This document shows, piece by piece, positions 2,113 through 54,182 of a stretch of DNA of 64,000 nucleotides (position 1 is the first letter of the stretch; each line of letters opens with the position of its first letter). A model generated the notes under the pieces. It searched no databases. It worked only from the letters and a program-made list of their open reading frames with translations, and was not told the origin of the DNA. The position numbers were made by a program, and so were the translations under genes. Source of the stretch: Mytilus galloprovincialis (Eukaryota; Mollusca; Bivalvia; Mytilida; Mytilidae); the NCBI RefSeq assembly GCF_965363235.1, contig NC_134839.1, forward strand, positions 75,603,410 through 75,667,409. The letters run 5' to 3'.

Positions 2113-2393
2113 CCATCATAACCTTCCAATTTTCCAGCAAACCTTCCAGCTGTCATCCGTTCTGCTTTTGTATCTAGGATAGTAGGTTTTTCATCTTGGT
2201 AGCCGACAACCTTGATATCGAACTCCTCAAAATCAGATCCTTTATCTTCATTACAAGTGAGTGTTCCACTTAAATGTATTGGCTTTTTGAATTGTGATTT
2301 TTCATAATTCAATCTGATTTTGTCGCTGACAGATGCCACCAATGTTTTGGAGTTTAACGAGTGCTTTGCATATTCCATGTCAGGTCTTTGTAT
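2113..2393 (-). CDS. Copy A exon 4
   Basis: 281 bases (93 codons plus two bases), acceptor TTTCTGCAG|ATA, donor GG|GTAATT directly followed by a short (AT)n run. It encodes IQRPDMEYAKHSLNSK, then L-N-Y-E-K-S-Q-F-K-K-P, V-V-G-Y-Q-D-E and G-Y-D-G. There are about 18 residue differences from copy C over this exon. The following exon is not found in the 2.1 kb to the window edge. Confidence 0.82.
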
Positions 2394-5300
2394 CTGCAGA
2401 AAAGATTAAATACAACTTGCATCCGTTTATTAGCGTCAGCAAAGACACCATTACATTCTATTATCTTTTAAATAGTATTAATATTTTCTATGCGTGAAAC
2501 TTATGTGTGTTCTACTTTATGGAGCATATTTCTCAATGTTCTTTTTATGCCGACGTCGTTAATGATTTCAGTTATTCAACGACGTTACGTTTGTGGACTT
2601 AGATTTATGCACGCCGTCATACGACTTATCATTGACGATCAGATCAATATAGTTGTAAAGCCAAACAAGTACACAGTTAGAGAGCATTGAGGACCCAAAA
2701 TTTCAAAAAATTGTGCCAAATACGGCTAAGATAATCTATTCATGGAATAAGAAAATCTTTAGTTTTTCGAAAAATTCAAAGTTTTGTAACAGGATTTATA
2801 AAAATGACCATATACTCATCCATTATGTTTTACTAAACTTACAGTATATCCCTTTTCAAAACAAAATAAAGAAACCAGCCTGTGTGTTTTGTCAAATTGC
2901 TTCTTATTGACGTTTATCAACACATACATGTGTATTGATACACATGTTCATGTTATTATTAATTTAGACAAAACTCGAGAAAAAACATACCCTTGTCATT
3001 CTTTTATGTTCAATCTTCAACATGTGGAAAATAAATTTACAACAGTGACAAGATGGTACTGATTCAACGGTTAGTTTGGCACTTTAATGAACATTATTTC
3101 AAAGTGAGAGAAATTAATTCACTTTCATATCTATGAATCGTTTTCACGTCTAACTGATACAATGATTACATACATGCACATGTAGTTCAAAAATAAAAGT
3201 AAAATTGATTTTTTTTCTTTCTTTTTATCCTTTTCGTATTTGGGGTCTGAAAATTTATCCATTGCATACAAAGCTGATTTGGGGTTTCCAAGGTTGTTTA
3301 TTTCGCTTCATTCAGTTTTTTTCTATCAATATCTTTATTCAAGGAATCGATTGGTTAAATAGAGAATAATGCCGTATCATCCCGAGATACCAATATCAAC
3401 CAGAGGGACTTTAGGCCCGAGGGATGATATTGGTCGAGGGTGATACGGCATGTGATACGGATTTTGCCATGTTTTATACGCTTTATCATATATTTCAACA
3501 GGAGAGTATATATGAAATACTTTCTGATCCCTAGCACCTGGGTTACCTTCAGTTCTACTTTTGTCTTGTTTTAAAAGCTTTAAAAGAAATGCTCAATTAC
3601 TCATCCAAAGCACCCGGGTTACCTTACAATTTGCGTGCTGTTGTTTTAAAAATGTTTTGTTTATTGTATTTTTTTTTTGTGAGTTTTGTATGGTATTTCA
3701 TTGAGTTCTTTTTTATAGTTGCATTTCGTGTGTCAGAAATATGAATACTCGACGTTTGTGACGTCACATTCCAAACAATGACGTCATTTAATAAATTGCG
3801 TCACGTCCGAATGGCCGGTCATTTACGGGATCAATTTTGAGGAAAACATTTTTAAGAATATTTAAACTAGAGAAGCTTGCATAAATTAAAAAAGTTAAAA
3901 AAATTAGTAGGGGTGTGATAAAGGGTGCGATAAAGAGTAGAGGTGTGATGAAGGCTGTGATAAAGGGTATGATAAAGGGTGCGCATCAAAGTTGCGCGAT
4001 ATGGATTAAACAGAAGGCTATTTATTAAATATTCAGAACTACTGTATTTACTACTAAGTATATGATAAATTATAAATCTCAACCATGTGTACTATATAAA
4101 TTTGTATAATATACCGAATATTTAAGAGTTTGTTCTTTGTCCACGCTTCCTTTATCAAACTGTAAAACCAGCCGACCATCTCTACCAGTAGAAATAGTTG
4201 TTCCAGAAGGATGTACAATATTTTGTATCATCTTTGGGCCGTAAATTATTCCAAAACTGTTCATCCGATCGCAGGAAAATTCGACATAACCATTCTGAAG
4301 CAAAATATAATTGTTCTCACTATAGACATATTTGTAATGTGTATTGAACTTTAAATTTCCTCAACTGCTATGGTACGAACGAGCTAGGTATACATGTGTA
4401 GTATTCCTGGATATGTATACAGAGAATATAGTTTTTCATTGACTGTATGCTTCAAATCAATACAAAATTACCGTATTTCAATTTTTATATACCGGAATTG
4501 AGAATAAAAAGCAGGGACCAATTTCCTAAATTTGTGTTAAGACCAAAGTAATTTTAAGTTGAAACTCATATTCATATTTTCTCAAAACTAATAGCATTAC
4601 ATCTACATATATGTTTAGCATACTTTTTTTTAAGTGAAGTATTTTTTTTTATATATATCTTGTTGACAAATTATACTATATTTGTATAAAAGGTCCTACA
4701 TTTGTTTAGTTCGTCTTCTTCAATACATACACACTTTTCGTTTTTATTTGCAAATGCAGTTTTGTGCGTTTTTGGATGCTAAATTCACCAAACACTCGAC
4801 GATTCTAGTATTATTTGAATCAGATCCAAAATCCCTATGTCGTCAAATACTTTTAAAAGAAAAGACTGTAAGTACAAACAATACACAAAAAAAAACGTAC
4901 CATGTTGGCTGTATAATTAAAAAAAGACATGGTAAAGGAAATATTTTACACATTTGTTTTAATGTGGTTGAGCAATTTTTAAATGGCGTACACACTCACA
5001 TTTCATCAACGCATATACATATCTCCATGTTAATTTAACTGTAACTTATGATTAAAAACAATTGAAAATAACACGGTACGTTTTGTATCCGTCTGAAGCG
5101 CTTTTCTTGATGTACCTATCCTATAAACGTTCAATATAAAAAAAAAAACGAAGAGGTTTTATGATTGCAAATAGGACAACTCACATCAAGAGACAAAATG
5201 ACATAGAAATTAACAGATATAGGTCATCATTCGGCCTTTAACAATGAGCCAAGCCCATACCGCATAGTCAGATTGAAAAGGATACAAAATCACAAATGTA

Positions 5301-8300
5301 AAACAATTCAAACGAGAAAACTAACGACTTAAAAAATGTACATATTTTTTAACGAAAAACAAGTATGCAACAAACGACAACAACTGCATTTCTTACTTGT
5401 GACAGACAAATACATACAGAATGTGGCGGGGTTACCTTAGATGTATTTGGCAAAACTTTTAGAAAATTTGGTTCTCAATGCTCTTCAACTTCGTACTTTA
5501 TTTGGCCTTTTTTAACTTTTTTTTGGATTCAAACGTCGATGATGAGTCTTTTATAGACAAAATGCGCATCTGGCGTAGATACAAAATTTAGTCCTGGTGT
5601 CTATGATGAGTTTATATTAAACAGGCCATATATTTGAAAGTCAAGGTAAACTCCAAAATATCGGAAGAGGTATTTTACCCAAAATATGGCAAAAAATAAA
5701 ATCAAGATACAATTACTACTAAGTATATGATAAATTATATATCAAACTAGAATTTAAATGCCTATGAGTGATACCTTTTTAGAAACTGTTGAAATTAATC
5801 TTCCTAATGATCTAATAAAAAATGGGTGTTTGTTGCCTCATTTTTCGTAAAATTTTATCACAAAGTTCGTGCGACAAAAAATTAGAAAAACATTACAATA
5901 ATTGCCGGACCAATGTATGGTATGGATATGCAAATACGGACTGTCATACATAAAACAGCCTATATTACATACATTACATAATCTTGTCGTCCATATCAAC
6001 CCAATATGAAGGCTATTTTTATCCTCAATTTTCCAAAAATTAATTTTATTGCACATTAGCTCTTATATTTGAAAAATCCTCAGGGGCAAAAATACGAAAC
6101 TACACACCTAACTGTGGAGTGCTACCTTTTAAGAATAATTTTTTCCCCTCCTGCCTCGAATTTTAATACATGTTCTGTGTTCTACTAGCTGTTACGATTA
6201 AAATGGTACCCTAGTTTTTAAAATTGGTTCAGTAATAAAGATTTAATGAAGGTATCATAAAATTACCTTAAAAGAGAAACATTGTACGATTGTTAGGTAT
6301 TTAAAAGCACTAATAGGTCCATTTTGCTGTAAATAGCATACATAACCTTGGTTTAGAAGCTCTTGTGCAGGGTATACATTTCTAACAGTACTGACATCAT
6401 TAAATTTAATTAATGTCAAAATTAAGATATGAAATCCTGCTAGAAATGTTTATTTGACTTATTTGCATTCCAAAATATAAGCTACTTTAAGCTATCATTA
6501 TTGTATAAGGGACCAATTCAAAACAAAAACAAAAAGAAAACAAACAGAAATTAAAAACTGATTGTTCTCTGAAGGTTTTTAACTTAAAATGGTGATAATT
6601 AAGATTTAAATGAACTTAAGTTCTTTTTCTTTAAACACAAAAAGAAAGAAAAACGTTGTCAGATAACTTATCTTAACTTTAATACTTGTATAACAACCTA
6701 TATAACTCTATCAAATGATATATTTTACCACTGATATTATACAATGTATTGAAATTCTGAATAATTTTTTTTCTATCTAAACATGTTTACGTGAAATAAC
6801 ACTGCGATAACAGACAGTGTAATTAAGCTACGAATGTATTTATGTAATACTGAATTAATTAAAGTTTTATTTGTTAGTTATCACTCTTTCGAACATAAAA
6901 TTGAGAATGGAAATCGGGAATGTGTCAAAGAGACAACAACCTAATTGACTTAAAAAAATATTACCCTCAAAGATGCAGGTATGGGAGTCCAAGTATTACC
7001 ACATTCTACCCATGCCCAGTAAGTATTTATGTCTTTATCTTTGATTGGAAATTTGTTTTCATCCACTGGGACCTGGAAGGAAACTTGTCCATGATGTTTA
7101 TGAACTAAAGAAAATGAACACTGACTTTTCTTTATGTGTTTCTTTTCGTCAGGATTAGTGATGGTTTGCAAAGATTTTGTTGATGACGTGGTACAAAGAT
7201 TATAAATATTTGTCACAAATTTTATATTCCTTTGGTTACTTGGTGGTTTTAAGCCTTTATTTCGTGCTTCAGCGCTCCAAACAGTTGTGTTATAATGTTT
7301 TAACGCCCCTATTAGTTCTTCTGATGTTTTAACTCTAATACCATTTCCTATGTCTAAATATTGGAATTGTTCGTCGTAAGTTTCTTCCTCAGAACTATAA
7401 TAATAGTCGTTTAATCCCTCGTCTGAATCCGATTCAAATTCCTCCCCAGAGTATGTTTCACCAAGACAATCATCAACACTGAAGTCGTCGTCTACCTCGT
7501 CGTTTACAACTACACCGTCTTCTTCTTCACGTATTGCCCTGAAAATTATAATCTAAATGCAAATTGATTTTCATCTGATGACCATTATTTTTATTAGCAC
7601 GAACATGATGAAATAAAGATATGTCTTTTATTTTACAAAATTTAACGACTCTATTTAAAAATAAGAAGATGTGATCTGAGACAACTCTCAATCAGTGATG
7701 TTAGAATTACAAAAAAGAGTATCATTTCACTATTTGTGTATCACCCAACTGCTGTCTCCAACATATAATGGCACGGCTTAATCATGTAATATGAACGTTT
7801 GAAGAATCAAGGGAAAAGTTTTAAAATAATCTTATTAACATAACATCAGCGAATGAGTCTTATTCTTATCGTAGTGTCTCTAGTGGCGCAGGATCTGTTT
7901 ACCTTTCCAGAGCACATGGGAATTGTTGGTGGCGTCGTCATCCTAAGTCTTTAAAATAATTAGTTTTCTGTGTTGTGTTTTTTCGACTTGATTGGTTTTT
8001 CGACGTTTTTTTATTACGTTTTGTATCTTCTGTATCTGAGCTATTAAAGGTTTCTTTTGTAAACTTCTATCTTTTTTTTAAAACAAAATACTCATATATT
8101 AAAAGAAAATAGATAATGCCATCTATTCTTTAGACACAAACGAAAACTTTACTAATAATTTCTTTCTTTAATCATGACATTTGATTTAATGCTGAAATCA
8201 ACGATATTTCAAGTCAGCAGAAGAGTGCTTACGAGTGGAGATATTTTTGCAACGAAACATGTAAACGCAGTGGCAACAACCAATTTGTTTTTATATACTA

Positions 8301-8748
8301 TATCAAAATACATATGATCATGATTTAGTACGTAAGACTCGTTCTAAATTGTAACTGTGGAGTTATATTTTAAAATGCTCGTTTTTATACCGTGTGGAAC
8401 ATCGATCACACATGGCCAAAAAGACAAAAAGACACTGTCCCGTTCTATGAAATACCTGTGTTTCTTATATTTATATTTGGTTCGTGTGTCGTAATCTTTC
8501 GGTCCTTATCAGTGTTTTATGCATTGTCCGTTTAAACGATCTTCTTTTCTAGATATATATAAAATGAATCAGTTAGTGTCTGTTTCCAAAACAAGTACTC
8601 AGATAGCAAATATCTTAATAACAAATTAGATAACTTACTGTTGCACCATGTACGGCTGATGTGATTGTATGTTGACAAGACTTCCTCTAAAAATATTTCT
8701 TGGTGTTCTAACAATTTGTCCCAGTTTCCTAGCGGAACTCTCCGCCAT
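2113..8748 (-). CDS. Copy A of an unrecognised five-exon gene family (exons 1-4, 3' end outside window)
   Basis: Spliced gene on the minus strand: exons 8748-8639, 6965-7538, 4115-4294 and 2113-2393. I do not recognise the product. The junction phases agree (2, 0, 0, 2) and every visible intron has GT..AG ends. The four exons give 381 codons plus two bases and no stop. By comparison with copy C a fifth exon of about 195 codons should follow, so the whole protein would be about 577 residues. Residues 1-37 are basic and polar. Residues 41-92 are strongly acidic (runs of E/D with Y and S). Residues 93-228 are a mixed alpha/beta-looking block ending in a W-A-W...W-T-P motif. Residues 229-288 contain F-G-I-I-Y-G-P and G-R-L-V-L-Q-F. 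Residues 289-381 are lysine-rich with a G-Y-D-G end. No signal peptide or membrane segment is evident, so a cytosolic or nuclear protein is inferred. It is the only copy here without a visible lesion. Confidence 0.8.
3370..3450. repeat. Imperfect inverted repeat
   Basis: TGCCGTATCATCCCGAG...CCAATATCA on the left pairs with TGATATTGG...GGTGATACGGCA on the right around a short loop. It is probably the tip of a foldback-type repeat. Confidence 0.6.
3910..3984. repeat. 12-bp tandem repeat
   Basis: Repeats of gggtgtgataaa with one- and two-base variants, about six units, inside copy A intron 3. Confidence 0.75.
4115..4294 (-). CDS. Copy A exon 3
   Basis: Exactly 60 codons, acceptor TGCTTCAG|AAT, donor TCG|GTATAT. 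It encodes NGYVEFSCDRM followed by F-G-I-I-Y-G-P, H-P-S-G-T-T-I-S and G-R-L-V-L-Q-F-D-K-G-S. This is a short beta-rich-looking block, highly conserved in copies B (25318-25497) and C (about 45745-45912). Confidence 0.82.
4295..6964 (-). other. Copy A intron 2
   Basis: 2.67 kb, AT-rich. It contains a dispersed repeat at about 5160-5420 (shared with 59.2-59.4 kb) and a mussel-type repeat end at about 5480-5620 ('...cgcatctggcgta...'). The stretch before exon 2 at 6660-6730 matches copy B at 26400-26475, which shows the intron was duplicated together with the exons. A 118-codon plus-strand ORF at 4682-5038 looks accidental. Confidence 0.5.
5160..5420. repeat. Dispersed mussel-type repeat
   Basis: Shares '...caatgagc.aagccca....gcatagtcag...' and '...caattcaaacgagaaaactaac...' with 59270-59420. 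The reverse orientation occurs at 16280-16480. Confidence 0.6.
6965..7538 (-). CDS. Copy A exon 2: acidic segment plus conserved block
   Basis: 574 bases (1 + 191 codons), acceptor TTTTCAG|G, donor AGG|GTAATA. It begins AIREEEDGVV and carries about 50 residues rich in Asp/Glu, with tyrosine and serine among them (SSEEE). A non-acidic block follows with K-T-S-E-E-L, P-V-D-E-N and N-T-Y-W-A-W-V. It is open along its full length, unlike the copy C equivalent, and has no counterpart in copy B. Confidence 0.82.
7539..8638 (-). other. Copy A intron 1
   Basis: 1.1 kb of AT-rich sequence between exon 1 and exon 2. At about 7880-8060 it holds a weak match to the '...gcaggatctg...gagcac...' tail that follows the reverse-transcriptase fragment near 29.2 kb, so an old retroelement scrap is likely. 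The rest shows no coding signal. Confidence 0.5.
8639..8748 (-). CDS. Copy A exon 1 (start codon)
   Basis: It starts with MAESSARKLG, 36 codons plus two bases, and ends at a consensus donor (CA|GTAAGT). The start is supported because the same ATG is conserved in four exon 1 copies in the window, at 8748, 27754, 52082 and 54182. The exon ends in phase 2, which fits exon 2, whose first base completes a Gln codon. Confidence 0.82.
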
Positions 8749-20250: not shown

Positions 20251-20839
20251 CTAAACATTGTTTTTTAAACCGCGCATATTTGTGGAAGAGCGTGGTTGTG
20301 GTCTCAAGATATCACTCATTGTCGAGTTTGCTCGACTCAATGTTGGTCTTTGATTCCCACTTGACAAAAAATCTAAACTGAAGTCCGCTTTTGTAATTTC
20401 CCCTCTTCTTTGGTTATCCGCTGAAAATTCTATTATAGCATTCGTTGATCTGCCCATTCCTCTATTTAATTCTACAGAAACCAACGTGTTATTCTCTTTC
20501 GTAACATACATGAAGAAAAGAAATGGATGATTTTTTATATCAGGTTTGAGTCCTCAACAACCAGTTGGCCGAATTCGAATCCGTTGATGCGGAGGTAGTA
20601 AAATATCCAAAGATTTGAAAACTAGTTTGTGTTCCTTTTTTTTAGCAATTATGTCAACTAAATTTCCCTGCATACAACATTCAGCTTTAAAATATAAAGT
20701 TGTATTATCTTTCGAGGTATAGAATAATAAAACTTTGCACACCTTTCGATTTCCGTAAAATAAATCCAGTTCGTTTTTTAACGTTTCTGCCAAATTTTCA
20801 TTATCCTTCTGTCCACGTTTAATTGCAACTAACGCTCCT
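20251..20839 (-). pseudogene. Copy B exon 5 with in-frame TGA
   Basis: 589 bases, the same length as copy C exon 5. It reads GALVAIKRGQK... to RIRPTGC, meets TGA at 20554-20556, then stays open in the same frame (GLKPDIKNHPFLFFMYV...) to a terminal TAG at 20251-20253. The two halves look like separate ORFs but are one exon. Confidence 0.8.
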
Positions 20840-23576: not shown

Positions 23577-23857
23577 CCATCATAACCATCCAATTTTCCA
23601 GTAAATCTCCCAGCTGTCACCTTTTCTGTTATTGTATCTAGAATAGAAGGTTTGTCGTCTTGGTAGCCGACAACCTTAACATCGAACTCCTCAAAATTAG
23701 ATCCGTTTTCTTCATTACAACTGAGTGTTCCAAATAAATGTAAAGGCTTTTTGAATTGTGATTTTTCATAATTTAATCTGATTTTGTCGCTGACAGATGC
23801 CACCAACGTTTTGGAATTTAACGATTGCTTTGCATATTCCTGGTCAGGTCTTTGTAT
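23577..23857 (-). pseudogene. Copy B exon 4
   Basis: 281 open bases, acceptor CTACAG|ATA and donor GG|GTAATT, beginning IQRPDQEYAKQSLNSK. It is the same length and phase as in copies A and C. Confidence 0.78.
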
Positions 23858-25317: not shown

Positions 25318-25497
25318 CGAATATTTAACAGTTTGTTCTTTATCCACACTTCCTTTATCAAACTGTAAAACTAGCCGACCATCTTTACTGGTAGATATAG
25401 TTGTTCCAAGAGGGTGTACAATATTTGTCATCACCGTTGGGCCACAAATTATCCCAAAACTAGTCATTCGATCGCAGGAAAATTCGACATATCCATT
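25318..25497 (-). pseudogene. Copy B exon 3 with mutated acceptor
   Basis: 60 open codons equivalent to copy A exon 3 (NGYVEFSCDRM...). The expected acceptor AG just before AAT is AT in this copy. The donor TCG|GTATAT is kept. Confidence 0.75.
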
Positions 25498-27647: not shown

Positions 27648-27754
27648 TGATTCATGTACGGATTATGTGCTTGTATTTGAGCAAGCCTTCCATTAAAACT
27701 AGTTCTTGGTGTTCTGACCATTTCTCCAGGTTTAATTGCGGGACTCTCAGACAT
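27648..27754 (-). pseudogene. Copy B exon 1
   Basis: Open for 35 codons plus two bases, beginning MSESPAIKPGEMVRTPRTSF, with donor CA|GTAAGT. It is intact by itself but has no matching exon 2 downstream. Confidence 0.75.
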
Positions 27755-28266: not shown

Positions 28267-29794
28267 TTAAGGTAGCACAATACAAAGATTTTTGATCACC
28301 AATCAGACATCTTGAAACTGATGTAATTCTGCTCATCTTTCTTTAAACTTTATAAATGAGGTAACAATAGAAAGAAGTGTGATTAATCTTTCAAATTGTG
28401 ATATAACTATTACATAATTAATTTTTATGTAATAAGTTGCCATATTGTGATGTCCATATTTGAATGAATTTAGCTTCTTTGTTATTCATAGCATCCAAAA
28501 ATATTTTATAGATTCTTGCACAACACAGTTTGACCTCCAAAACCGTGTCTCAAATTTTTTCTATTGTATTTCATTCTCTCATAAATCTTCAATGAAGTTT
28601 GCAACATCAAGGAAGAAAAATAAGAAGTTAGCAATATCCTTCAACTCTACTTTCCGCTATATAGATGATGTTCTTTCAATAAATAATTCTAAATTTGGTG
28701 ACGATGTGGAACGCATATATCCCATCGAGCTAGAGATAAAGGATACTACAGATACAGTTAAGTCGGCCTCATATCTTGACTTACATCTAGAAATTGACAA
28801 TGAGGATCAGTTGAAAACAAAACTTTACGACAAAAGAGATGATTTCAGCTTTCCAATTGTGAACTTTCCATTTCTAAGTAGCAACATTCCAGCAGCACCT
28901 GCATACGGGGTATATATCTCCCAATTGATACGATATTCCCGTGCTTGCATTTTCTATCATGATTTTCTTGATAGAGGATTGCTGCTCACGAGGAAGCTAT
29001 TAAACCAAGAGTTCCAAATGGTGAAGTTGAAATCATCCCTTCGTAAATTTTACGGACGCCATCACGAGTTGGTTGACCGTGATGGAATAACCGTTTCACA
29101 AATGATATCGGATATGTTCCTTACGTCGTAACTACAATCCCCTTTCCTTTCATGAATGTGACCTACCAAATTAGACTATTTACCGGATTTGTTATCACAT
29201 AAGCAACACGACGGGTGCCACATGTGGAGCAGGATCTGCTTACCCTTCCGGAGCACCTGAGATCACCCCTAGTTTTTTGGTGGGGTTCGTGTTGTTTATT
29301 CTTTAGTTTTCTATGTTGTGTCATGTATGCTGTTGTTTGTTAGTCTTTTTCATTTTTTATCCATGGCGTTGTCAGTTTGTTTTAGATTTATGAGTTTGAC
29401 TGTCCCTTTGGTATCTTTCGTCCCTCTTTTATAAGAGACCACTACATTCAATTGGGTATAAAATTTGTTCTATTGATGTTCTATTGGAAATCTGAGACAT
29501 GGCTTTGGAGGTCAAGCTGTGTTGTACAAGAATCTATAAAATATTTTGGGATGCTATGAAGAACAAAGACCCTAAACTCATTAAAGTGTGGACATCACAA
29601 TATAGCAACTAATTACATAATAATCAATTATGTAATAATTATTTCATAATGAAATTATCACAATTTGAAAGATTAATCTTTCTTCTTTCTTTTTGGTACC
29701 TCATTTATAAAATATAAAGAAGGATGAAATGAATAACATCATTTTAAAGTTGTCTGATTGAGAGTGAAAAAATCTTTGTATTGTGTTACCTTAA
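28267..29794. mobile_element. 1.53-kb element with ~280-bp terminal inverted repeats and TTAA ends enclosing the RT fragment
   Basis: The left arm (28267-28543) begins TTAAGGTAGCACAATAC. The right arm (29502-29794) is its imperfect reverse complement and ends in GTGTTACCTTAA. Similarity runs through the whole arm, for example 'gacctcc' at 28532 against 'ggaggtc' at 29507. TTAA at both outer ends is the target-site hallmark of piggyBac-type insertion, but no transposase is present. Confidence 0.72.
28460..29131 (+). pseudogene. Reverse transcriptase C-terminal fragment (retroelement remnant)
   Basis: One open frame of 223 codons to TAA. The first about 40 codons overlap the left inverted repeat and are probably not native. 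From about residue 65 there is F-R-Y-I-D-D-V-L-S, the catalytic-aspartate motif of a reverse transcriptase palm, then S-A-S-Y-L-D-L-H-L-E-I (the pattern that usually follows the palm), then K-L-Y-D-K-R-D-D-F and a thumb-like region ending K-L-K-S-S-L-R-K-F-Y-G-R. The fingers, N-terminus and any nuclease are missing, so it cannot work alone. Many near-identical fragments of this type occur in bivalve genomes (my recollection). The clade is unsure; a Penelope-like or other non-LTR source is possible. The tail after the stop, with '...gcaggatctgctta...', recurs in part near 7.9 kb and, inverted, near 35.62 kb. Confidence 0.72.
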
Positions 29795-34519: not shown

Positions 34520-36896
34520 GATGCCAAATTTTGTCTCCGAACATGACGAAATTGTAGATTTTTTACACTTTTCGTCGTTTAGGGTTTTTCAAGGTCTCAG
34601 TTTGAACATATTTGAGTACATAACACCTAAAAATAAGGTTCTACATGGACCATCAGATACTGTAGTTCATAACACAGGCGTGATGGGTTTCAACTTCAAA
34701 GTTTAAAAATTTTGAAAAAAGGGGGCCAAAAACGGCCCTTATCATACCTTGTCCTTTGCCCAAGATATCTTCACTCTTGTGGGATTTATAACCCATAAGT
34801 AGCGATTAAGATCAATTACTATGTAAAAATAAAATGGCTTAAAAGATTTAAATTTTTCACTAGAATTCATAACTGTTTTCTTCATATTAAATTGACTTCC
34901 TTTTTGATTGTTTGTACAATACATTCAAGTGAACACATATTTATGTATACTGTGAAGAGCTTTTGTCGTGTTGTTTCGGCATTTTATGGCATAATCTTCA
35001 AGGTAACCAATTCACATTACAAAATTGCAGAAACCTTTAAAATTGGAGTATTATAACCTTGTGGAAATATGTAAAAGGCGAATTAAAAATGCAAACGAGC
35101 GAGGTTTTGTTAGTTATAAAACCAGGTTTTTACCCATCATTTTCTTCGAGAAATTCCTGTACCGGGTCAGGAGTATATGACAGTTTTTTCCCACCTATTC
35201 CATTAATTAATAACGTTTGATTTTGTCAGATGTTTTGGACTTCCCTTTTTTAATGTGGCTTTCTGTTCGTTTGTTTTGTTATACTTATTTTAACTATTCT
35301 AAGCTGACATTTATATATATTTTTTTAAATGTGAAATAATCAAGTTAAAACTATAGACAGAAAAATAACAAATTGAAATCAAACAACAAGGATGGTTACA
35401 TTCGCTTGTCATTTTGGTATTTGATAATGTTCAAGGCCTATACACACATGTAGTATTTATATAAACTATCGTAATACTTTCTTCACCAAACAGTGTAATG
35501 GCAAACAATATTTCAATCAGATTATATATATATTTCTTTAAAACATTTATTTGAAAGGTTTGATTTGAGAGCTCAAAACCATAACCCCTTCCGGTCTACA
35601 CACGTCTGTTTTTCAAGAGAGGGGCGAAAGATACCAGAGGGACAGACAAACTCATATATCAAAAATAAACTGACAACGACATGGCAATAAAATAAAAAGA
35701 CAAACCTACCATACCTTTTCTGTCTGAGTTGTCTAATCCAGAGTCTGATTGTGTCTCTCGTTTTGTGATTTTTGTGATTTTATTTGTTGATCAGTGTTGT
35801 GTTCAGACCTCTCTTTGTATCTAACATTTAATGTGCAATTGTCTGTTTACAGTAATGTCAATGTTGTATGTAGTCTGTTTTATCTGTGCTGTTTGTGGTA
35901 TTTTCAGTGTTGTTCCAGCATTTCAGGGCATAATCTTCAGCAGAGGACGCTTACCATATCGACACATCCAGTCTCGCTCCATTTAGGGTTAATGATATTC
36001 CTTCAATCTCAGTTTTGTACCTTGGTGATTTGCATTTGCTTTATCTGAGATTGATTTGCACATTAAGTTAGCTGTTACTGTGTCACTTTTCTTTATAACC
36101 GATTTGCTACTTTAAATTTTGCGTTACTGTATGCCTGTCTTGTTTTAACATCGTTTTGTACGCTTGTCTTGTACAATATATGTTTGTCAGTCTTACTTAA
36201 GTTTTTGTATATCTTCCATGTCTTATATCGGTTCACTGGTGTATATTTCAGTAGTCGTGTTGTCATAAATGTATGTACACTTTTCTGGTTGTGGGAGTTG
36301 ACTGTACAACACATTTGTGTTATGGTTGTATGTACACCTACTTTGCTTAAAGGATGTGTGTACACTCGTTTTAGTTAAAAATTCGCCTGTATACAGTTTC
36401 ATGAATTTCTCTAGTCACATTTTACATTCACGAATAAAATTGAGAATGGAAATGGGGAATGTGTCAATGAACAACACAACACCACTACCAAGGAGCAGAA
36501 AATCTCGCACCCATATGCGGGTTTCAGATGTACTCTACTCTACTCTATATGTACTGGTTCAATGAAAATGGAAGTTACACTAAAACTCCAAAACATATAA
36601 AGGAACTAAAATTAAAAATAACATATATAACTTACAAAGGTCAGAAGCTCCAGACCAAGGACAGGCGCAAACATGCGTCAGTGTAAAATGTTTTATGATA
36701 TACTAATGGACCTTCTATACCTCTAGTCAATGTAGAATAAACAAACGCACAGCAAAAATCAGTTTTAAGGAAATCTGAGTCCGATGTGAGAAAAGGGAGC
36801 ATTAAAAACTAAGCAAAATGACAACAATAATTAAATTTAACACATGACTGCTAACAGCATGTGAGTTCCTTACCTCAATTTTACTGATTAAATACA

Positions 36897-38981
36897 TAGT
36901 ATCGAATTCATAACAGTGTGGCTATGGACATTGATTGACGCACTTTAATATCCCATTGACTGGGACAGATTAGGTGAACGTTCGTCTATAACGCCCATTG
37001 CTCACGACGTCCTTAATATAAACATTTAAACCGTGGGGTCACCAAAGGTTCTCAACGCCTATATAAAATAATTCGAAATACTAATCAGGAATTTGTGTTT
37101 TGATTTATATTGATTAATTAAACGTCCTTTACTTGTGTTTTTGTTATGTTTCGACAATCAATTTTCATAATAAGATATCGCAAAGCCATGTTCTTTCAGA
37201 AAAAAGAATGACTTACTGAATGCATGTATTGATTGATTATCTTTTTCGGATTTAACAATTGCGATTGTCGAGTTATGTAATCTTTTAACTTTTATCTGCT
37301 CTAATTTTATTTTAGAACGAATGCATAATCCACTTTCAAAAGTTGTGCAAATACGAAACATAAAGACAAAATATACTTCTGCCCTGTCTTTTTTGTACTT
37401 GAAAGTTATTGGATAGTAAGAAAGCTATTTGGATTAAACCTTGTGAAATTTGCATGCATTTACGTTATTGTATTAGCAAAATGTATCATTTGGTGTATAT
37501 AGGAAACTTAAACCGTTCTGCTATACTGCTACTATACTTGTGAAAAACACTTGGCAACAGAAACGCATTCATCTTATCTATATAAAAAAATCGACCCAAT
37601 TTACATAGAAATGGACGTCTTCGTGCATTTGTGATCGCAAATAAAATATGTTCTGGACCTTATGAGTATTTGGACCATACGTGTATGGTTGGACCATATT
37701 AGTATACCCTTATGGTCATGATATATGCGTATGGTCCAAATACTCATATGGTCCGGAACACATACATGATATTCTGTGCGTTGTCGGTCGTCTATTAATT
37801 TTTTTCTTTTGTTGATGGATTTGACGTCTTTCTGTGAGTGATTATTTGTTCATGACTTAAAACTTACTTGCAAATAATTTAAAAACAAGACTTGATTTAT
37901 AAAAATGTCCAAACAAACCATGATTTTTTTTTAAACATACATCACATCCATTGCAAAAGGCTAAAATTCGCCAGGTCTTTAATTTCAACTAAGTGAGTTG
38001 ACTAAATTAATGTTGCGGACCATTTTCCAATTTCCATGCGGTATCCCTATTTTTTTTTCTCGCTCATCTTTTATGTTTGTTTTTTCGATCATCCCAAGAC
38101 CTCTTGGAGCTTTCATTCTATAAAGTGTGTATTTTTCTAATGGTCGAAGGCCATACGGGGACCTATAGCTTGATAACGCCTGTTGGTCCCTGGAAAGAAT
38201 GTGTCTGATGGCCTATCACACTTCATATTCTTATTTTAACATGCAGTTATATCTATGATAAGAATATAAATTGAATTGTCATTGAGACAAAAACCCAACC
38301 AAAGAGCAAAAAAAAAGAAGAAAAAAAAAACCCAAGGCAACATGTAGATCTTTCGTATCAAGGGAATTGCTATAAATATATTTATTTCAGGTTAATAGTA
38401 TTAGGCCATACTCAAGTTATAAAATAGATCTTGTCGTCAACTTTTGCAACCAGCTTCTATGTTTCTATAATGCACTGTTCATCTTTTTTGGGCTTCGACT
38501 TTTCCATTGGACAGACAATTTTGTTTTCGACTGTTTTAAAAAGATGCATTTTTTTACAAAATCATACAAGTAAGGAGTCTCTGGCCTTTGGTAGTGTTGT
38601 ATGTTAATTAATGTTTGTTTATTTATTTGTTTAGGAAATAAGTATGACGTACATTTTCACTGAACTAGGACACTTTTTATATTAGTTTTTCGATATCGCT
38701 CGGGCAAAAATAATCACGAATATAATGCCTACCCATGTTAAAACTACAATAAAGTATAGTTTGCATCAATTATTTCTTGAACCTACCATTTTTTTTTTTT
38801 GTCTGTGTTGGATTTGTGTGGCATTGAAAAAAAACGGGTATAAACTACACAGTGCAGCTTCCAACAAGAATACAAGATTTATTGATTTTCAAAATGCGAC
38901 CAAAATTAAAAATTTTCTCGCAGCGGAAAAAATGCAACAGTTTGATTTTCATTGAAATAAAATAATTGTTATAATTTACAC
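36897..38981 (+). repeat. 2.08-kb near-identical direct repeat, copy 1
   Basis: Matches 61915-64000 with only a handful of substitutions and small indels (for example a 5-base 'gactt' gain in copy 2, C to T near 37299, poly-T length). It contains a large hairpin (37648-37763) and several older dispersed repeat ends. No credible ORF; both 67-69 codon frames inside are AT-rich. Confidence 0.9.
37648..37763. repeat. Hairpin with nested 'ggaccata' words
   Basis: The left arm 'ctggaccttatgagtatttg' pairs with the right arm 'caaatactcatatggtccgg'. The loop repeats 'tggaccatat' and 'tatggtc' again. The same structure is at 62666-62781. Confidence 0.75.
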
Positions 38982-39678
38982 ACCGTTACCTTTTCCAATA
39001 TAAATATTCGAACTATTTTGTTTGTTGTTTCCTTTATAAATTTACATCATTTTCAAAAAGACCACGTCTCTTCGATATTTAGAAGACTATAAAAGCGATG
39101 TTCATTATCTTTCTTCTGCTGTAAGTTTAATTTAGTTATTTTGTGTCATAATTGCCATCTCGTATGTTTTAAATTTGAATAAAGAAGATTCAGGTTGTCT
39201 TATACGTCAATGATACACAAAAAAAAACCGATAACAAATAAAATAAGGTGCAACATTCATTCTCCATGAAATGAATACATCACATGGATGTCATTTTTGT
39301 AAGAAAAATACCAATTTCGTGAGAAGTTGTGTGTTGGACTTGAAGAGCCAAGGCAAACTGACAAATATCTGAATGAACGAATCGATTTATGGTATATATA
39401 AAAAAAAAAAACAAAGCCCACATGGTTAGCATTGAATAAATAGAAGGCCACTCTTAAATGATCACAACGTAGAAGTTTTTGTTCTCTTAATCAATAAGAT
39501 GTTTTCTGAAATAACGCGGGTCCCTATTAACTTAAAAGTTTTTTTGGTTTTTTTTTACCATGAATAAACATTTTTTTTATTATTATTATTTATTGATATC
39601 AGCTCTGGACATTAATATTCTTAAAAGTGAAACTGTTGTAAGTGATGGTATAACAATTATTTAAAATAAATTCCTTAA

Positions 39679-39951
39679 ATGATATGTGAAAAGAAAGTTT
39701 CATTTTATGTATCAAAATGTGTAACAAATGATTATTTAAATCCCCACTTGAAGGCCTCCGATAGACTGAGTGAGCATAAAATCATCGCCCACGACAAACA
39801 AGTTAAAGGTAAACTTTTCAGTACAATTACTAATAAACGTTTTACTGTCGACCACACTGTTATGAATTTCGTTCTATGTTTTCATCATATGAAAATCAAG
39901 CACAGACCCTCCTGCTTGGCGTTTAATATCATATCATCCTTAAATATATGA
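39679..39951 (+). other. Unassigned 90-codon frame
   Basis: Open frame with a polar segment (L-K-A-S-D-R-L-S-E-H-K-I-I-A-H-D-K) and slightly raised GC at 39745-39920. No homologue is seen elsewhere in the window and no domain is recognised. It could be a transposon scrap or chance. Confidence 0.2.
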
Positions 39952-42357: not shown

Positions 42358-42946
42358 TTAAACAGTGTTTTTTAAATCACGAATTTTAGTGGCATTATTT
42401 GGTTGTGTTCTAAAAATATCACTTAGTGTAGAGTTTGCTCGACTCAAATTGTGTCTTTGATTCCCACTTGACAGAAAATCTAAACTGAAATCCGCTTTTG
42501 TAATTTCTCCTCTTCGTTGGTTATCCGTTGAAAATTCTATAATAGCATTCGTTGATCTGCCCATTCCTCTATTTAATTCTACAGAAAACAACGTGTTATT
42601 CTCTTTTGTAACATACATGAAGAAAAGAAATGGATGATTTTTTATTCCAGGTTTGAGTCCTAAAGAACCGGTTGGCCGAATTCGAATCCTTTGATGTGGA
42701 GGTAGTAAAATATCCATAGATTCGAAGATAAGTTTGTGGTCCTTGTGTTTAGCAATCATGTCATCAGAATTTCGTTGCAAACAACACTCAGCTTTAAAAT
42801 ATAAAGTTGTATTATTTTTCTCGTGAAAAAATAAAAAAACTTTGCACAACTTTCGATTTCCGTAAATTAAATCCAGTTCGTTTTTTAATGTTTCTGCAAA
42901 ATTCTCTTTTCCCGTCTTCCCGCGTTTAATTGCAACAAAGGCTGCC
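42358..42946 (-). pseudogene. Copy C exon 5 (terminal coding exon, open)
   Basis: 589 bases: one base finishing a Gly codon, 195 codons and TAA. The acceptor is TTTTTCAG|G. It has A-F-V-A-I-K-R-G, then a block with L-K-N-E-L-D-L-I-Y-G-N-R-K and C-K-V-F-L-F-F, a K-A-E-C-C pair, L-L-P-P-H-Q-R-I-R-I-R-P-T-G, H-P-F-L-F-F-M-Y-V, and a polar Arg/Asn/Ser-rich tail after F-S-L-D-F-L-S-S-G-N-Q-R. I recognise no named domain. It gives the family's natural C-terminus. Confidence 0.8.
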
Positions 42947-43810: not shown

Positions 43811-44091
43811 CCGTCATAACCTTCCACTTTTCCGGTAAATCTTCCCGCTGTCACCCTTTCTGCTATTGTATCTAGGATGATAGGGTTTTCATCTTGGTAG
43901 CCAACGACCTTAATATCAAACTCCTCAAAATCAGACCCTTGGTCGTCATCACAACTGAGTGTTCCACTCAAATGCATTGGCTTTTTGAATTGTGATTTTT
44001 CATAATTCAATCTGATTTTGTCGCTGACATATGCCACCACATTTTTGGCATTTAATGAGTGTTTTACATATCCCTGGTCAGGTCTTTGTAT
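43811..44091 (-). pseudogene. Copy C exon 4
   Basis: 281 open bases, acceptor TTTTAG|ATA, donor GG|GTAATT, beginning IQRPDQGYVKHSLNAK. Length and both phases match copies A and B. Confidence 0.8.
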
Positions 44092-45730: not shown

Positions 45731-45912
45731 CGAATATTTTAAACTTTATGTTCTTTATCCACACTCCCTTTATCAAATTGTAAAACTAGTCGACCATCTT
45801 TTCCAGTAGAAATAGTTGTCCCAGAAGGCTGTACAACATTTTCCATTATCTTTGGACCGTAAATTATTCCAAAACTCTTCATTCGATTGCAGGTAAATTC
45901 GACATATCCATT
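45731..45912 (-). pseudogene. Copy C exon 3 with 2-base shift at its 3' end
   Basis: Acceptor TTGCTTCAG|AAT, then NGYVEFTCNRMKSFGIIYGP and G-R-L-V-L-Q-F-D-K-G-S-V-D-K-E. After this it is two bases longer than copies A and B, giving a TAA before the conserved TCG|GTAT donor. An alternative in-frame end is 45745, using GTTTAA as donor. Confidence 0.72.
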
Positions 45913-46150: not shown

Positions 46151-47456
46151 TTTTAACTAGAGGCTCTAATGAGCCTGTGTCGCTCACCTTGGTCATGTGA
46201 ATATTTAACAAAGGAAGCAGATGGATTCATGACAAAATTGTGTTTTTGTGATGGTGATGTGTTTGTACATTTTACTTTACTTAACATTCTTGCTGCTTAC
46301 AATTATCTCTATCTATAATGAACTTGGCTCAGTAGTTTCAGTGGAAAATGTTAGTAAAAATTTACAAATTTTATGAAAATTGTTAAAAATTGACTATAAA
46401 GGACAATAACTCCTTAGGGTCAATTGACCATTTTGGTCATGTTGACCTTATTTTAGGTCTTACTTTGCTGTACATTATTGCTGTTTACAGTTTATCTCTA
46501 TCTATAATAATATTCAAGATAATAACAAAAACAGCACAATTTCCTTAAAACTACAAATTCAGGGGCAGCAACCCAACAACGGGTTTTCCGATTCATCTGA
46601 AAATTTCAGGGCAGATAGATCTTGACCTGATTAACAATTTTACGCCTTGTCAGATTTGCTCTAAATGCTTTGGTTTTTCAGTTATAAGCCAAAAACTGCA
46701 TTTTACCCCAATGTTCTATTTTTAGCCATGGCGGCCATCTTGGTTGGTTGGCCGAGTTACCGGACATATATTTTAAACTAGATACCCAACAATGATTGTG
46801 GCCAAGTTTGGATTAATTTGTTCCAGTAGTTTCAGAGGAGAAGATTTTTGTTAAAGATTACTAAAATTTACGAAAAATGGTTAAAAATTGACTATAAAGG
46901 GCAATAACTCCTAAAGGGGTCAACTGACCATTTCGGTCATGTTGACTTGTTTGTAAATCTTACTTTGCTGAACATTATTGCAGTTTACATTTTATCTTTA
47001 TCTATAATAATATTCAAGATAATAACCAAAAACAGCAAAATTTCCTTTAAATTATCAAATCAGGGGCAGCAACCTAACAACAGGTTGTCCAATTCATCTG
47101 AAAATTTCAGAGCAGATAGATCTTGACCTAATAAACAATTTTACCCCCATGTCAGATTTGCTCTAAATGCTTTGGTGTTTGAGTTAAAAGCCAAAAACTG
47201 CATTTTATCCCTATATTCTATTTTTAGCCATGGCGGCCATCTTTGGTGGTTGGCCGGGTCACCGGACACATTTTTTAAACTAGATACTCCAATAATGATT
47301 ATTGCCAAGTTTGGTTTAGTTTTGCTTAGGAGTTTCAGAGGAGACGATTTTTGTAAAAGTTAAGAGACGACGCCGGACGACGACGACGACGACGGACGGC
47401 GGACGCAAAGTGATGAGAAAAGCTCACTCGGCCCTTTGGACCAGGTGAGCTAAAAA
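46151..47456. mobile_element. 1.3-kb element with internal duplication and GAC-rich tail
   Basis: Begins near 'gaggctctaatgagcctgtg...gctcacctt' and ends 'gctcactcggccctttggac..aggtgagc'. Two internal units of about 500 bases are repeated (for example 'aggggcagcaacc' at about 46561 and 47061, 'atggcggccatctt' at about 46729 and 47231). A (GAC)n stretch is at 47367-47405. It belongs to a familiar bivalve repeat type and has no ORF of note. Confidence 0.75.
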
Positions 47457-47602
47457 TGAATACTAGTATGCTGAACTAGGAAAAGCTTGAAATAAATAAC
47501 CTTGCATAAGACAGAAAAGTACAAATAATTTTTCGCGCACAAAATGATTAGCATGCGTAACATCAGATATAAATGAAACAACAATCCAAAACCAATTTAC
47601 GT

Positions 47603-47616
47603 CCCCCCCCCCCCCC
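47603..47616. repeat. Poly-C tract
   Basis: Fourteen consecutive C bases. Confidence 0.9.
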
Positions 47617-48035: not shown

Positions 48036-48606
48036 CATCAAAGATGCGGGTATGGCCCTCCAAGTATCCCCAATTTCTACCCATGCCCAGTAAGTATTTA
48101 TGTCCTTGTCCTTAATAGGAACAATGTTTTCATCCACTGGAACTTGGAAATAAACCTTCCCATGGTATTTGTCAACCAGAGCAAATGTGCACTGTTTCTC
48201 CTTAACAAGTTTCTTTTCGTCTGCATTGGTGATGTTTTGCACAGCTTTTGTGACTGCTCTTGTAGAAAATTTATAAATATCTGTCACAAATTTTACATTC
48301 TTTTGGTTATGTGGTGGTGGTTTAAAGTGTTTATTTCGTTCTTCGTTGCTCCAAACAGTTGTTTTCTATTGTCCTAAAGGCTCCATTAGTTCTTCTGATG
48401 TTTTAACTTTAATACCATTTCCAACATCTATATGTTGAAATAGTTCGTCCTCATTATCTTCTTCAGAACTATAATAGTCGTTTAAGCCCTCGTCTGAATC
48501 AATTTCAAAGTCGCCGTCATATGTATCACTAGCAAAATCATCAGGACTGTATTCGTCGTCTACTTCGTCATTAACAACAACACCGTCTTCTTCTTCTCGA
48601 ATTGCT
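48036..48606 (-). pseudogene. Copy C exon 2 with in-frame TAG
   Basis: 571 bases (one codon shorter than A), acceptor TTTTCAG|A, donor ATG|GTAATA. It opens AIREEEDGVVVNDEVDDEYS and continues with the acidic stretch to E-L-M-E-P-L-G-Q, then TAG at 48366-48368 where copy A has a Tyr codon in an H-Y-N context. The frame stays open after it through N-T-Y-W-A-W-V-E-I-G-D-T-W. Confidence 0.78.
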
Positions 48607-48922
48607 CTGAAAAGTATCAAATTTTAGTCACAAAATACTCTTTTTACAAATTGTTTTATATCAGAAGATCTTTGTTTACCGTCACAGTATATTTATGCCA
48701 GATATTGTATAAACCCAATTTTCGAATGAAGTTTATTGTTAGTTGCATTATTACTGGTTTTATTTCAGACACCATGTTTTATTTCAATGAAATGCAAATC
48801 CTGAATAACAATGCTGCTAATAACATCGATAGTTACCAAAGGTACAAGGCTTATAATTTGATATGCCAGTCGTCAGAGCAATGACGACTCAAAATCCCAA
48901 AAGGTTGTGCCAAATACGACTA

Positions 48923-49549: not shown

Positions 49550-51972
49550 GGTAATGTATGCTCTGGATAGTAAAATCCCAGCACTTCGAATAATCTATTC
49601 TTTTGCAATAGTTAATTTAAAAAATTACCATATAATTGATATTCATTTCAACACCGAAGGTCTGACTTCATGGCTTGTGATACCCTTGAGGACGAAACGT
49701 CCAGTTGCAGTGGCATCAACCCAGTGATGTCAATAGTAATCAAAGGTACCGGATTTACCAATTGATGTCGCTACAATTTGCGTTGAAACAAATTTTATTT
49801 AAGAATGTAATATTTAAACCTAACATTAATTGTGCAAATATTTTTCGAAACATTCAAAGGTGTTCACTTCGCTTTAAATTTTATCGATATCATTAAAACA
49901 AATCTTATCACAAGACTTCGTGTAGGATAATTTGTTTTGATTCAATCTGTATGTTATTTTCTTTGTGTAAATTTAATAACGTAAGCATATGAACATTTGT
50001 CATGTAAGCTTCAAAACTACATACCTTTTGTGGTACAATTATATACATATTCGATTACTGAATTAGTTTAATCAAAGCTGGGGTTACTTAACAACGTGGT
50101 AACCAAGAAATGTTACTGATTGCTTATTATCTAACTGATATCTCTAAAATAAAGTGTTAATACTTCGGTATGTACTTTGAAAGATAAAAGTCCAAGAAAA
50201 CCCAATGGTTTTAAATATTCATAAAACATAGATAAAATCATGTCTCTTCAGGCCATTGTCGTCATATGAACACCTTCGATTGACACTAAACACGTGTAAA
50301 CCTGATTCTGTGCAACTATATCAATCTACATTGAAATGACATTTTTGTACAATCACATTTAACGTCACTTGTTCGGTACTAATGCCTCCTTGTCTTCACA
50401 AAATAATGAGCTCTGATGTACAATGTGCACGGATAAACCAAGGAACGCGCTTCGGACACATTACATCAACATATTGGTATTCTCATTTCTTTTAATGTTA
50501 TAATAGATGATGATTATTTTATCAGACGAAGCTTTAATATAGTTCTTTAAGACTGAAATAAGAATAATCATAAGGTTGATGATTTTACAACTATTGGTTC
50601 GATGCCACTGCTGATAGACGTTTCGTTATTCAGCATATCACTAGCATCGTCGAATATGTGCTAGCATGAAATAAAACTACGAGATAATTTTTCTACAGCA
50701 TACATAGATGTGCAAAGCGAGATTTGGTATAACGTTTTAATATTTCTGGGCTATTTATAATGATCTTCAACACTGAGTTTGATTTGGTCCTCCTTTTTAT
50801 TTTAGACAGTAGTGTATATACGTAGTTAGCCTCAATATTTAATGTAAATTATGTATATTTACATGAATAATTAAGCAGTTATACATTTATGAACAAAATG
50901 AACCTAACAAGGATAGCAAAATAGATCTTAGGTCATTAAAATTCAAAATGAAAACAGGGAATGTGTCAAACATACAAAAATCCGACCAAAGAGCAGAAAA
51001 AAGTCTAAGACCATGGAAGGGTCTTCAAGACAACGAGAAAATCCAGTGAAAATGTATAAAAAATCAGACTTTGTTTGAGTTAGTCTTCTGTACATGTATT
51101 GCTTAATGTATTCTTTTTTTAATATCTAAAACTATAACTGTCTAGAGTGGATGAAAATCGTATCTCAAGCGATGCAATGGTAGAATCCATACATACGTGT
51201 ACATGTATCGGCATTATATTAGCATAAAATAGGCAGTTAGTATACCAACTATTTTGTGCGTACTAAGAGCTTTTTTTATTTAACTTTCAGGAAAAAATTT
51301 ATAATACCGTTCTGAAGAGAATAATTCGACATCCGAGTTCCTCCAGTTTATGTTGAATTCGTATACTTTTAAAAAGTAAACTCACAAAAATACTGTTCTC
51401 CGAGGAACGGAAAGTCCCTAATCAAATGGCAAAATCAAAAGTTTAAACACATCAAACGAATAGATAACAACTGTCATGTTCTGGAATTGCTACAGATATG
51501 TTCTTATATGGAAAATGGTGGATTATAGCTAGCTAAACTTCTCATTTGTATGACATTTGCACCAAATTCCATTATATTGACAACGTTGTGAACAAAACAA
51601 ACAGACATAATAGGTAAAAATGTAGCAAATAGGGTACAGAAGTCATATTATCTTGATCACTATATTAACTAAAAACATGTAACTAAGAAGCACAAAAAGG
51701 CATATAGACAAAGCACAAGAGCAAAAATGAAAGACCAGAATACAAAAATTATCATAGAACAATAACAAAATGAAGAAGGTTTTGTTCATGTGTCTCCTAT
51801 TTTCATTTTGGTAATGCTGTCTGTTTTATTCAACGTATTGATAAGATCGTCCATATGATATTTCCCCCTCTAATTTCTTCTGGACTGTTTAACAAAATTC
51901 ATTATAGTATTTCAAAATAAAACACAATTACCCAGATGGCAGAAATTTTAAATGACATATTAGATAATTTAC

Positions 51973-52082
51973 TGTTGCACCATGTACGGCGGATGTGATT
52001 AAATTTGGCCAAGACTTCCTTTAAAATTAGTTCTTGGTATTTTAACAGTTTGTCCCGGTTTCCTAGTGGAACTCTCCGCCAT
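51973..52082 (-). pseudogene. Second exon 1 of copy C, with in-frame stop
   Basis: A duplicate of the exon at 54073-54182, lying 2.1 kb nearer to exon 2. It starts MAESSTRKPGQTVKIPRTNF, but codon 28 is TAA (after L-G-Q-I), and its donor is the weaker CA|GTAAAT. It belongs to a tandem duplication of the 5' region: about 51122-52280 is repeated from about 52290, the second unit being enlarged by later insertions. Confidence 0.75.
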
Positions 52083-53032
52083 TGTATTGCAATAACTTTT
52101 TTCTAACTTTCTTTGCTTATACAATGAATTTATAGTAGTGAAGAAGCAATTGTTATTAAAGGTTTTAAACGTTATTAATCAACTTTATTCTTAACCTTAT
52201 CTATTTTAAATGTTTGAACAAATCATGATAGATTGTATATGCTCTCAATTTATATACTTTTGATTTCTACATATTAAATATTATTAGGATTCTAAAACTA
52301 TAACTGTCTAGAGTGGATGAAAATCGTATCACACTCGATGCAATGGTAGAATCCATACATATATGTACATGTATCGGCATTATATTAGCATGAAATAGGC
52401 AGTTAGTGTACCAACTATTTTGTGCGTACTAAGAGCTTTTTTATTTACATTTCAGGAAAAAAATTATAATACCGTTCTTATGAGACTTAAATTACGACAA
52501 TGGAGATGATTCCTATTTTCTCGTTTTTAACTTTTCTCTTCCGAGAATTAACAGTCGCTAACACCTGCATAAGTTGAACCGTTGGTCAGACAGTTAAAAC
52601 CTGAATGCCAGAATTGCGTACTCTTATTGCAACGTATTCGACCTATAACAATTTGTTCACTTGTTATTAGTGTAGTGCCGGGTGCTTCTAGAGGAGCATT
52701 ATCTGATTACCTATCTGAGGCATCCGAGTTTCTCCAGTTTATGTTGGATTCGTATACTTTTAAAAAGAAAACTCACAAAAATACTGAACTCCGAGGAACG
52801 GAAAGTCCCTAATAAAAAGGAAAAAATCTAAAGCTCAAACACATCAAACGAATAGATAACAACTGTTATGTTCTTCACTTGCTACATGTATGTTCTTATA
52901 TGGAAAATGGTGGATAAAACCTGGTTTTATAGCTAGCTAAACTTCTCATTTGTATGACAATCGCATCAAATTCCATTATATTGACAACGGTGAGGGAACA
53001 AAAAAAAATAGACATAATAGGTAAACATAAAA

Positions 53033-53715
53033 TTAACGGTACCAATTTTCTTGCACCAGATGCGCATTTCGACAATACATGTCTCTTCAGTGATGCTCGT
53101 GGCCAGAATAGTTGAAATCCAAAGCTTATATAAAAGATGAAGAGCTATAATCCAAAAGGTCCAAAAAGTATAGCCAAATCCGTGAAAGGAATCAAAGGGA
53201 GATACATTCCTTAATCTATAATAATTTCTATCATTTTGTATGAGGGAGATACATTCCTTAATCTATAATAATTTCTATCATTTTGTAACAGCAACTTTTA
53301 ATAACACAAAAAATCCGTATTTTCATGCCAGTGGCTACTGGGCTGGTGATACCCTCAGGGGCTAATAGTCCACCAGCAGAGGCATCTACCCAGTGGTAGT
53401 TATAAAATTAACGTTACCAATTTTCTTGCACCAGATGCGCATTTCGACAATACATGTCTCTTCAGTGATGCTCGTGGCCAAAATAGTTGAAATCCAAAGC
53501 TTATATAAAAGATGAAGAGCTATAATCCAAAAGGTCCAAAAAGTATAGCCAAATCCGTGAAAGGAATCAGAGCTTTGCATGGGGGAGATACATTCCTTAA
53601 TTTATAATAATTTCTATCATTTTGTAACAGCAAATTTTAATAACACAAAAAATCCGTATTTTCATGCCAGTACCGAAGTACTGGCTACTGGGCTGGTGAT
53701 ACCCTCGGGAACTAA
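53033..53715. repeat. Tandem pair of a dispersed repeat
   Basis: Two units of about 370 and 310 bases beginning 'aaaattaac.gtaccaatttt' (53033 and 53405). A 50-base piece ('agatacattccttaatctat') is doubled inside the first. It is related to 1630-1760 and, inverted, to 55140-55230. Confidence 0.75.
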
Positions 53716-54072
53716 ACATGTAACAAATAGGGTACAGCAGTCAACATTGTTTTATAATCGTGATCACTTTAAAAACAAACAAGCATGTAACAAAGAAGCA
53801 CAAAAAGGCATATAGACAAAGCACATTAGCAAAAATGAAAGACCAGAATACAAAAACTAACATAGAACAATAACAAAATGAAGGTTTTGTTCATGGTTTC
53901 TTTCTCCTATTTTCATTTTGGTAATGCTGTCTGTTTTCTTCAACTTATTGTAAAGATCGTTCATATGATATTTCCCCCTCTAATTTCTTCTGGACTGTTT
54001 AACATAGTATTTCAAAATAAAACACAATTACCCAGATGACAGAAATTTTAAATGACATATTAGATAACTTAC

Positions 54073-54182
54073 TGTTGCACAATATACGGTTGATGGGATT
54101 GAATTTGTCCAAGACTTCCTTTAAAATTAGTTCTTGGTGTTCTTACAATTTGTCCCGATTTCCTAGTGGAACTCTCCGCCAT
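54073..54182 (-). pseudogene. Copy C exon 1 (outer, intact version)
   Basis: Starts MAESSTRKSGQIVRTPRTNF, 36 codons plus two bases, donor CA|GTAAGT. It is open and phase-compatible with exon 2 at 48606, which makes it the likely first exon of copy C. Confidence 0.75.

Follow-up and report, generated by a model that had tools for sequence, protein, structure and literature searches.

A partly decayed tandem gene family in Mytilus galloprovincialis, apparently a divergent branch of the ZU5-UPA proteins

Tandem gene copies in the mussel Mytilus galloprovincialis, initially annotated as an expanding family without a nameable domain, raised the question of what kind of protein they encode and how many of them could still encode it. 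The window, that is, the whole 64,000-nucleotide stretch of DNA analyzed (C2:75603410-75667409, in a genome of 1.385 Gb and 331 contigs), contains three related multi-exon copies, A, B, and C, all on the minus strand, within positions 2113-54182.

Gene structure of the three copies

We determined exon borders by three-frame translation and by reading the boundary DNA, and the splice letters were then checked by script. Copy A is laid out as follows, the domain labels being those proposed below.

8639..8748, minus strand: copy A exon 1 (MAESS start, phase 2 donor)
6965..7538, minus strand: copy A exon 2 (acidic linker and a domain inferred to stand at the place of ZU5-N)
4115..4294, minus strand: copy A exon 3 (SF motif, probable start of ZU5-C)
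2113..2393, minus strand: copy A exon 4 (remainder of the probable ZU5-C)
C2:75602358-75602946, outside the window: copy A exon 5 (UPA-type)

Exon 5 lies 463 bases past the low end of the window. The five joined exons gave an open frame of 577 codons plus a stop, so that the protein length of about 577 residues initially proposed holds to the residue for copy A when the exon 5 outside the window is included. The frame starts with an ATG, with in-frame stops upstream, and ends with a polar tail in exon 5 followed by the stop, before any death domain. Every intron of copy A was found to be of the GT...AG type, and the phases after exons 1 to 4 were 2, 0, 0, and 2, the same across copies. The linker is strongly acidic, with 25 acidic residues and 1 basic residue between positions 38 and 100, and no transmembrane segment was found in copy A, the highest 19-residue Kyte-Doolittle mean being 0.66.

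Copies B and C consist of the following exons.

27648..27754, minus strand: copy B exon 1
25318..25497, minus strand: copy B exon 3, acceptor AG lost
23577..23857, minus strand: copy B exon 4
20251..20839, minus strand: copy B exon 5, in-frame TGA at 20554-20556
54073..54182, minus strand: copy C exon 1, open
51973..52082, minus strand: copy C second (inner) exon 1, internal stop
48036..48606, minus strand: copy C exon 2, TAG at 48366-48368
45731..45912, minus strand: copy C exon 3, 2-base insertion giving TAA at 45739-45741
43811..44091, minus strand: copy C exon 4
42358..42946, minus strand: copy C exon 5 (UPA-type), open

Exon 2 of copy B was not detected by tblastn at an E value of 0.01, and its exon 3 is preceded by CAT in place of CAG. 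The three copies had been described as equal in exons, phases, and splice sites; they are indeed related and multi-exon and share their phases, but copy B has no detectable exon 2 and lacks the acceptor AG of exon 3, and copy C carries stops. Copies B and C are broken, and copy A is the only one of the three able to encode a full-length protein. Judged from its sequence, copy A is apparently an intact, working gene, which makes it the exception among the three copies of the window. Intron 2 of copy C contains a direct duplication of about 530 bases with 87% identity (window 46330-47362).

Family members across the genome and coding constraint

The family is larger than the three copies in the window. 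Searching the whole genome with exon 5 by tblastn gave at least 13 matches, 8 of which (A, B, C, D, E, F, I, and J) lie in a cluster at C2:75.528-75.646 Mb; the matches outside this cluster are G and H at C2:36.2 Mb, K at C2:107.55 Mb, and M and N on C6. Exon 2 gave 7 matches in the genome. Among the eight cluster members, copy A alone is complete over five exons. Exons 2-5 are open in F, I, and J, and exon 1 of these three was not found. Four of the eight (B, C, D, and E) have disabling defects or are fragmentary: D has a stop in exon 2, while E lacks exon 3 and consists of a partial exon 4 plus an exon 5 whose reading frame changes. The exon phases of copy A recur at the boundaries read in other copies. 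In a tree of 13 exon 5 rows, M and N, I and J, and G and H were joined with starred support; the pairings of A with B and of C with E were less firm, and the deep forks were weak. Since family stretches of at least 400 bases are 75 to 91% identical, the copies are too diverged to be haplotype duplicates, and we rejected this explanation. The description of the family as expanding thus applies in part, as it is multicopy and tandemly duplicated with at least 13 exon 5 matches, but half of the cluster members have decayed. The cluster would have evolved by local duplication accompanied by frequent decay.

Between copies, the coding exons showed about 70 to 90% DNA identity, while the introns shared only patches shorter than about 300 bases. 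Since exon sequences are kept and introns, apart from these patches, are not, the conservation is coding. Over 13 pairs, dN/dS ranged from 0.16 to 0.65, with 0.33 to 0.50 among A, B, and C and 0.37 for A-D; the values of 0.30 for A-F and 0.16 for F-G both come with a dS of about 1.84, near saturation. Seven of the 13 pairs were subjected to a z test of pS > pN, and z was >3 in five of them (A-B, A-D, A-F, F-G, and I-J), with no significant constraint in G-H (1.0) and M-N (1.8). Together with the dN/dS values among A, B, and C, these five pairs support the initial claim that conservation acts at the protein level. Branch-wise substitutions were too few to separate broken from intact lineages (silent/replacement, 5/6 for A, 4/7 for B, and 8/7 for C).

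These data also bear on whether the cluster is a relic on its way to disappearance, in which even copy A would make no protein of consequence. The four broken or fragmentary cluster members and the two pairs without significant constraint speak for such a relic, but copy A is open over 577 codons with intact splice sites, F, I, and J are open over exons 2-5, and z is above 3 in five pairs; we therefore regard a mere relic as improbable.

Domain identity from paralogue profiles

Single family sequences searched against Pfam, NCBIfam, and the PDB gave nothing significant, and no family member reached the gathering cutoff of Pfam ZU5, UPA, or UPA_2. Exon 5 of copy I, alone among 12 members, matched positions 5-112 of the 131 of UPA_2 at an E value of 0.01, below the cutoff. 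The NOMO model of Pfam scored similarly (E value of 0.0095) over 28 residues compared with 112 for UPA_2; such sub-threshold matches, among them NOMO, T9SS_plug, and DUF5992, were dismissed, as all are far below cutoff and none occurred in more than 2 of 12 members or 1 of 7. Ankyrin repeats gave no Pfam match in exons 2-5. Genome-wide scans with Pfam ZU5, UPA, and UPA_2 found 11, 4, and 3 places, respectively, none at the family loci; we take these places to be ankyrin, UNC5-like, and ZO-1 genes.

Profiles built from the paralogues gave a different picture. When exon 5 was taken from all 13 loci except copy B, which was omitted for its stop (alignment A1, 12 loci), only ankyrin-3 and ankyrin-2 were found in the PDB below an E value of 1, in their UPA region (2.1e-4, 3.8e-4, and 6.2e-4), the sole further match having an E value of 1.3. 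The matches became stronger when the profile covered exons 3-5 and was drawn from seven of the 13 loci (alignment A2, comprising A, D, F, G, I, K, and M), namely, 7.3e-7 for ankyrin-3 (6m3p), 2e-6 for ankyrin-2 (6m3q), and 5.6e-6 for ankyrin-2 (4d8o), and these ZU5-UPA structures were the only ones below 0.1, the next match, at 0.13, being unrelated. In both printed alignments the A2 match consists of two colinear stretches, which cover ankyrin residues 168-257 or 168-259, the start of the second ZU5 (FAVVSRIKQ...GPEGG), and then residues 345/346 onward, in the UPA (to about 453); we take these regions of the matched structures to be ZU5-C and UPA. The ZU5-C stretch taken alone has an i-E value of 0.7 to 1.1. 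Since the three ankyrins are closely related, they count as one piece of evidence. Reversing the rows of A2 gave a best E value of 0.28 and no ankyrin.

Adding exon 2 (alignment A3, exons 2-5 of 6 loci) again returned no sequence besides the three ankyrins (3.4e-5 to 4.3e-4), a match weaker overall than that of A2, and a profile of exons 2 and 3 (9 rows), where ZU5-N is expected, found nothing in the PDB. Comparison by hhalign with the UNC5-like ZU5 of the same genome (5-row alignment) was not significant (P values of 0.16 for A3 and 0.11 for A2); the aligned segment in these runs was the corresponding one, and reversed rows gave a P value of 0.67.

On the basis of these profiles, exon 5 is shown to be a UPA-type domain, and a ZU5-C domain is probably encoded by exons 3-4, as suggested by the order of the two stretches. 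The order and length of exon 2 lead us to infer a second ZU5 (ZU5-N) there. Because the paralogue profiles match the ZU5-UPA core of ankyrins, exons 3-5 are significantly similar to a well-described family, the outcome initially named as refuting an undescribed one, and by this sequence comparison the family is not one of an unrecognized domain. The initial view that no domain can be named held for single-sequence Pfam searches but not for the paralogue profiles, with their E values of 7.3e-7 to 5.6e-6.

Could the likeness to ankyrin be a chance resemblance of an unrelated beta-rich family? The unreached Pfam cutoffs, the nonsignificant hhalign comparison, and the failure to find ZU5-N would fit that explanation. 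It is nevertheless very improbable, given that below an E value of 0.1 the A2 profile retrieves three ankyrins and nothing else, in two colinear stretches, that exon 5 alone and exons 2-5 return the same three ankyrins, that the reversed control was negative, and that the sub-threshold Pfam match is to UPA_2. We thus favor, with a probability of roughly 0.7, the reading that the family encodes ankyrin-type ZU5-UPA proteins that are divergent and free-standing and probably act as scaffolds.

According to PMC5135030, canonical ankyrins carry 24 ankyrin repeats, followed by ZU5-ZU5-UPA and a death domain, and the cassette is specific to true ankyrin genes. The family matches ZU5-C and UPA in the same order as in the ankyrin core structures (4d8o/6m3q and 6m3p). 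Unlike ankyrins, however, copy A has neither ankyrin repeats nor a death domain, and the family has many loci, a single-exon UPA, and a divergence beyond Pfam detection. The genome's ankyrin gene appears to lie at C9:87.36-87.38 Mb, where the UPA is split over two exons; as the family UPA is contained in one exon, a recent ankyrin copy is unlikely. The order of ZU5 followed by UPA is also found in UNC5 and UNC5-like receptors, but copy A has no transmembrane segment and ends before any death domain, and the UNC5-like loci of this genome, so named by reading, are detected by Pfam ZU5/UPA while the family is not. Elsewhere in the genome, UPA_2 matched weakly (E value of 1.67, 18.3 bits) in an open frame of 612 codons (C7:20276366-20276611), which could be a further, intronless relative.

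Among the matches listed for the open-licence literature on ZU5 in bivalves, Mytilus, or oyster, including PMC8195603 and PMC6641155, the available portions of text did not describe the family. No relatives were found in prokaryote genomes, scanned with one protein, or in viral contigs, a result that is uninformative on molluscs. Overall, this is apparently a real, unreported branch of the ZU5-UPA proteins, some of whose tandem copies have decayed. If so, a module thought to be bound to ankyrins also occurs in an amplified gene family of its own, which escapes Pfam-based annotation, and an "orphan" family can be placed by paralogue profiles from one genome. The family would then offer a testable case of cytoskeletal or cell-death scaffold reuse in an invertebrate.

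The SF motif, candidate partners, and neighboring sequence

An SF dipeptide is invariant in all nine rows of alignment A6, near the end of the domain preceding ZU5-C. It is followed by G in A, B, C, D, I, and J, by L in F, G, and H, and by C in K and M; a serine is thus absent after SF in all 11 loci read (E lacks exon 3, and N was not among the 11). As stated in PMC3210808, CARD8 and NLRP1 are cleaved at SF/S near the end of their ZU5, the second serine being required. The SF of the family is placed like this site in the FIIND of CARD8/NLRP1 and in the ZU5-UPA of PIDD, but the serine nucleophile of the autoproteolytic HF/S or SF/S site is replaced by G, L, or C, and no CARD or death domain was found in copy A. 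Since the residue after SF is not serine, we do not expect these proteins to cleave themselves by the known route; in K and M, the cysteine might conceivably serve instead.

The placement of SF raises the alternative that the proteins, instead of being ankyrin-like cytoskeletal scaffolds, are cell-death or immune regulators of the PIDD/UNC5/FIIND kind which have lost their death domain and act in trans on death-domain adaptors. Besides the position of SF and the cysteine in K and M, this is suggested by the TRADD-N cell-death proteins, which, according to PMC8195603, are expanded in bivalves and in some animals fused to UPA-ZU5 modules. The tandem turnover with decay seen in the cluster fits as well. 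Such turnover is common in immune genes. We consider this alternative unlikely, however, since the profiles match ankyrin and not UNC5 structures, the serine nucleophile is missing from every locus read, and copy A has no death domain. A candidate death domain beside K (L026:5539-5934, an open stretch downstream of exon 5 that might be an additional exon) was recognized by eye only and, as no search supported it, was rejected.

Under the preferred reading of an ankyrin-type ZU5-UPA family, the protein would consist of a short N terminus, the acidic linker, the exon 2 domain at the place of ZU5-N, ZU5-C (exons 3-4), UPA (exon 5), and the polar tail. It would be a cytosolic, nonenzymatic beta-sandwich module which, by analogy, may bind a partner through its packed ZU5-UPA core, with the acidic linker as a putative flexible docking segment. 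The ankyrin core binds spectrin, and ZU5-UPA units clamp a death domain; the sequence cannot decide whether the partner is of the spectrin or of the death-adaptor type. As a tentative proposal, more doubtful than the domain assignment, the family could be a mollusc-restricted, free-standing ankyrin-type ZU5-ZU5-UPA family, separated from ankyrin repeats and death domain and amplified in tandem, of fast-turnover cytosolic regulators serving as decoys for spectrin or for a death adaptor.

In the linker, an L-N/Q-D-F/Y motif recurs in A, C, D, F, G/H, and M, in segments picked by eye, and was not seen by eye in I, J, and K. In the acidic exon 2 linker of the M locus, a DNLQDFASSFGSIRP-like unit occurs in three imperfect copies (L036:5109-6000 into L027).

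Rfam gave no match in the window. Upstream of copy B, window 28451-29131 contains a fragment with a YIDD motif, presumably reverse-transcriptase-like, which Pfam did not match. Related fragments adjoin G (C2:36261.5 kb) and H (C2:36222.3 kb), and one beside F (C2:75534.3 kb) shares the 5' part of the copy B fragment. Upstream of copy I (C2:75595.7-75597.5 kb), a broken frame looks by eye like a retroelement integrase. An open frame at window 61070-61642, with hydrophobic segments and a YRFGGEPEWR stretch, has an apparent likeness to the beginning of a concentrative nucleoside transporter, although neither Pfam nor the PDB confirmed it. Finally, a 3-kb block occurs twice, 25 kb apart, with 99.2% identity (window 36896-39876 and 61914-64892, the latter reaching beyond the window end), and is perhaps a recent mobile element.
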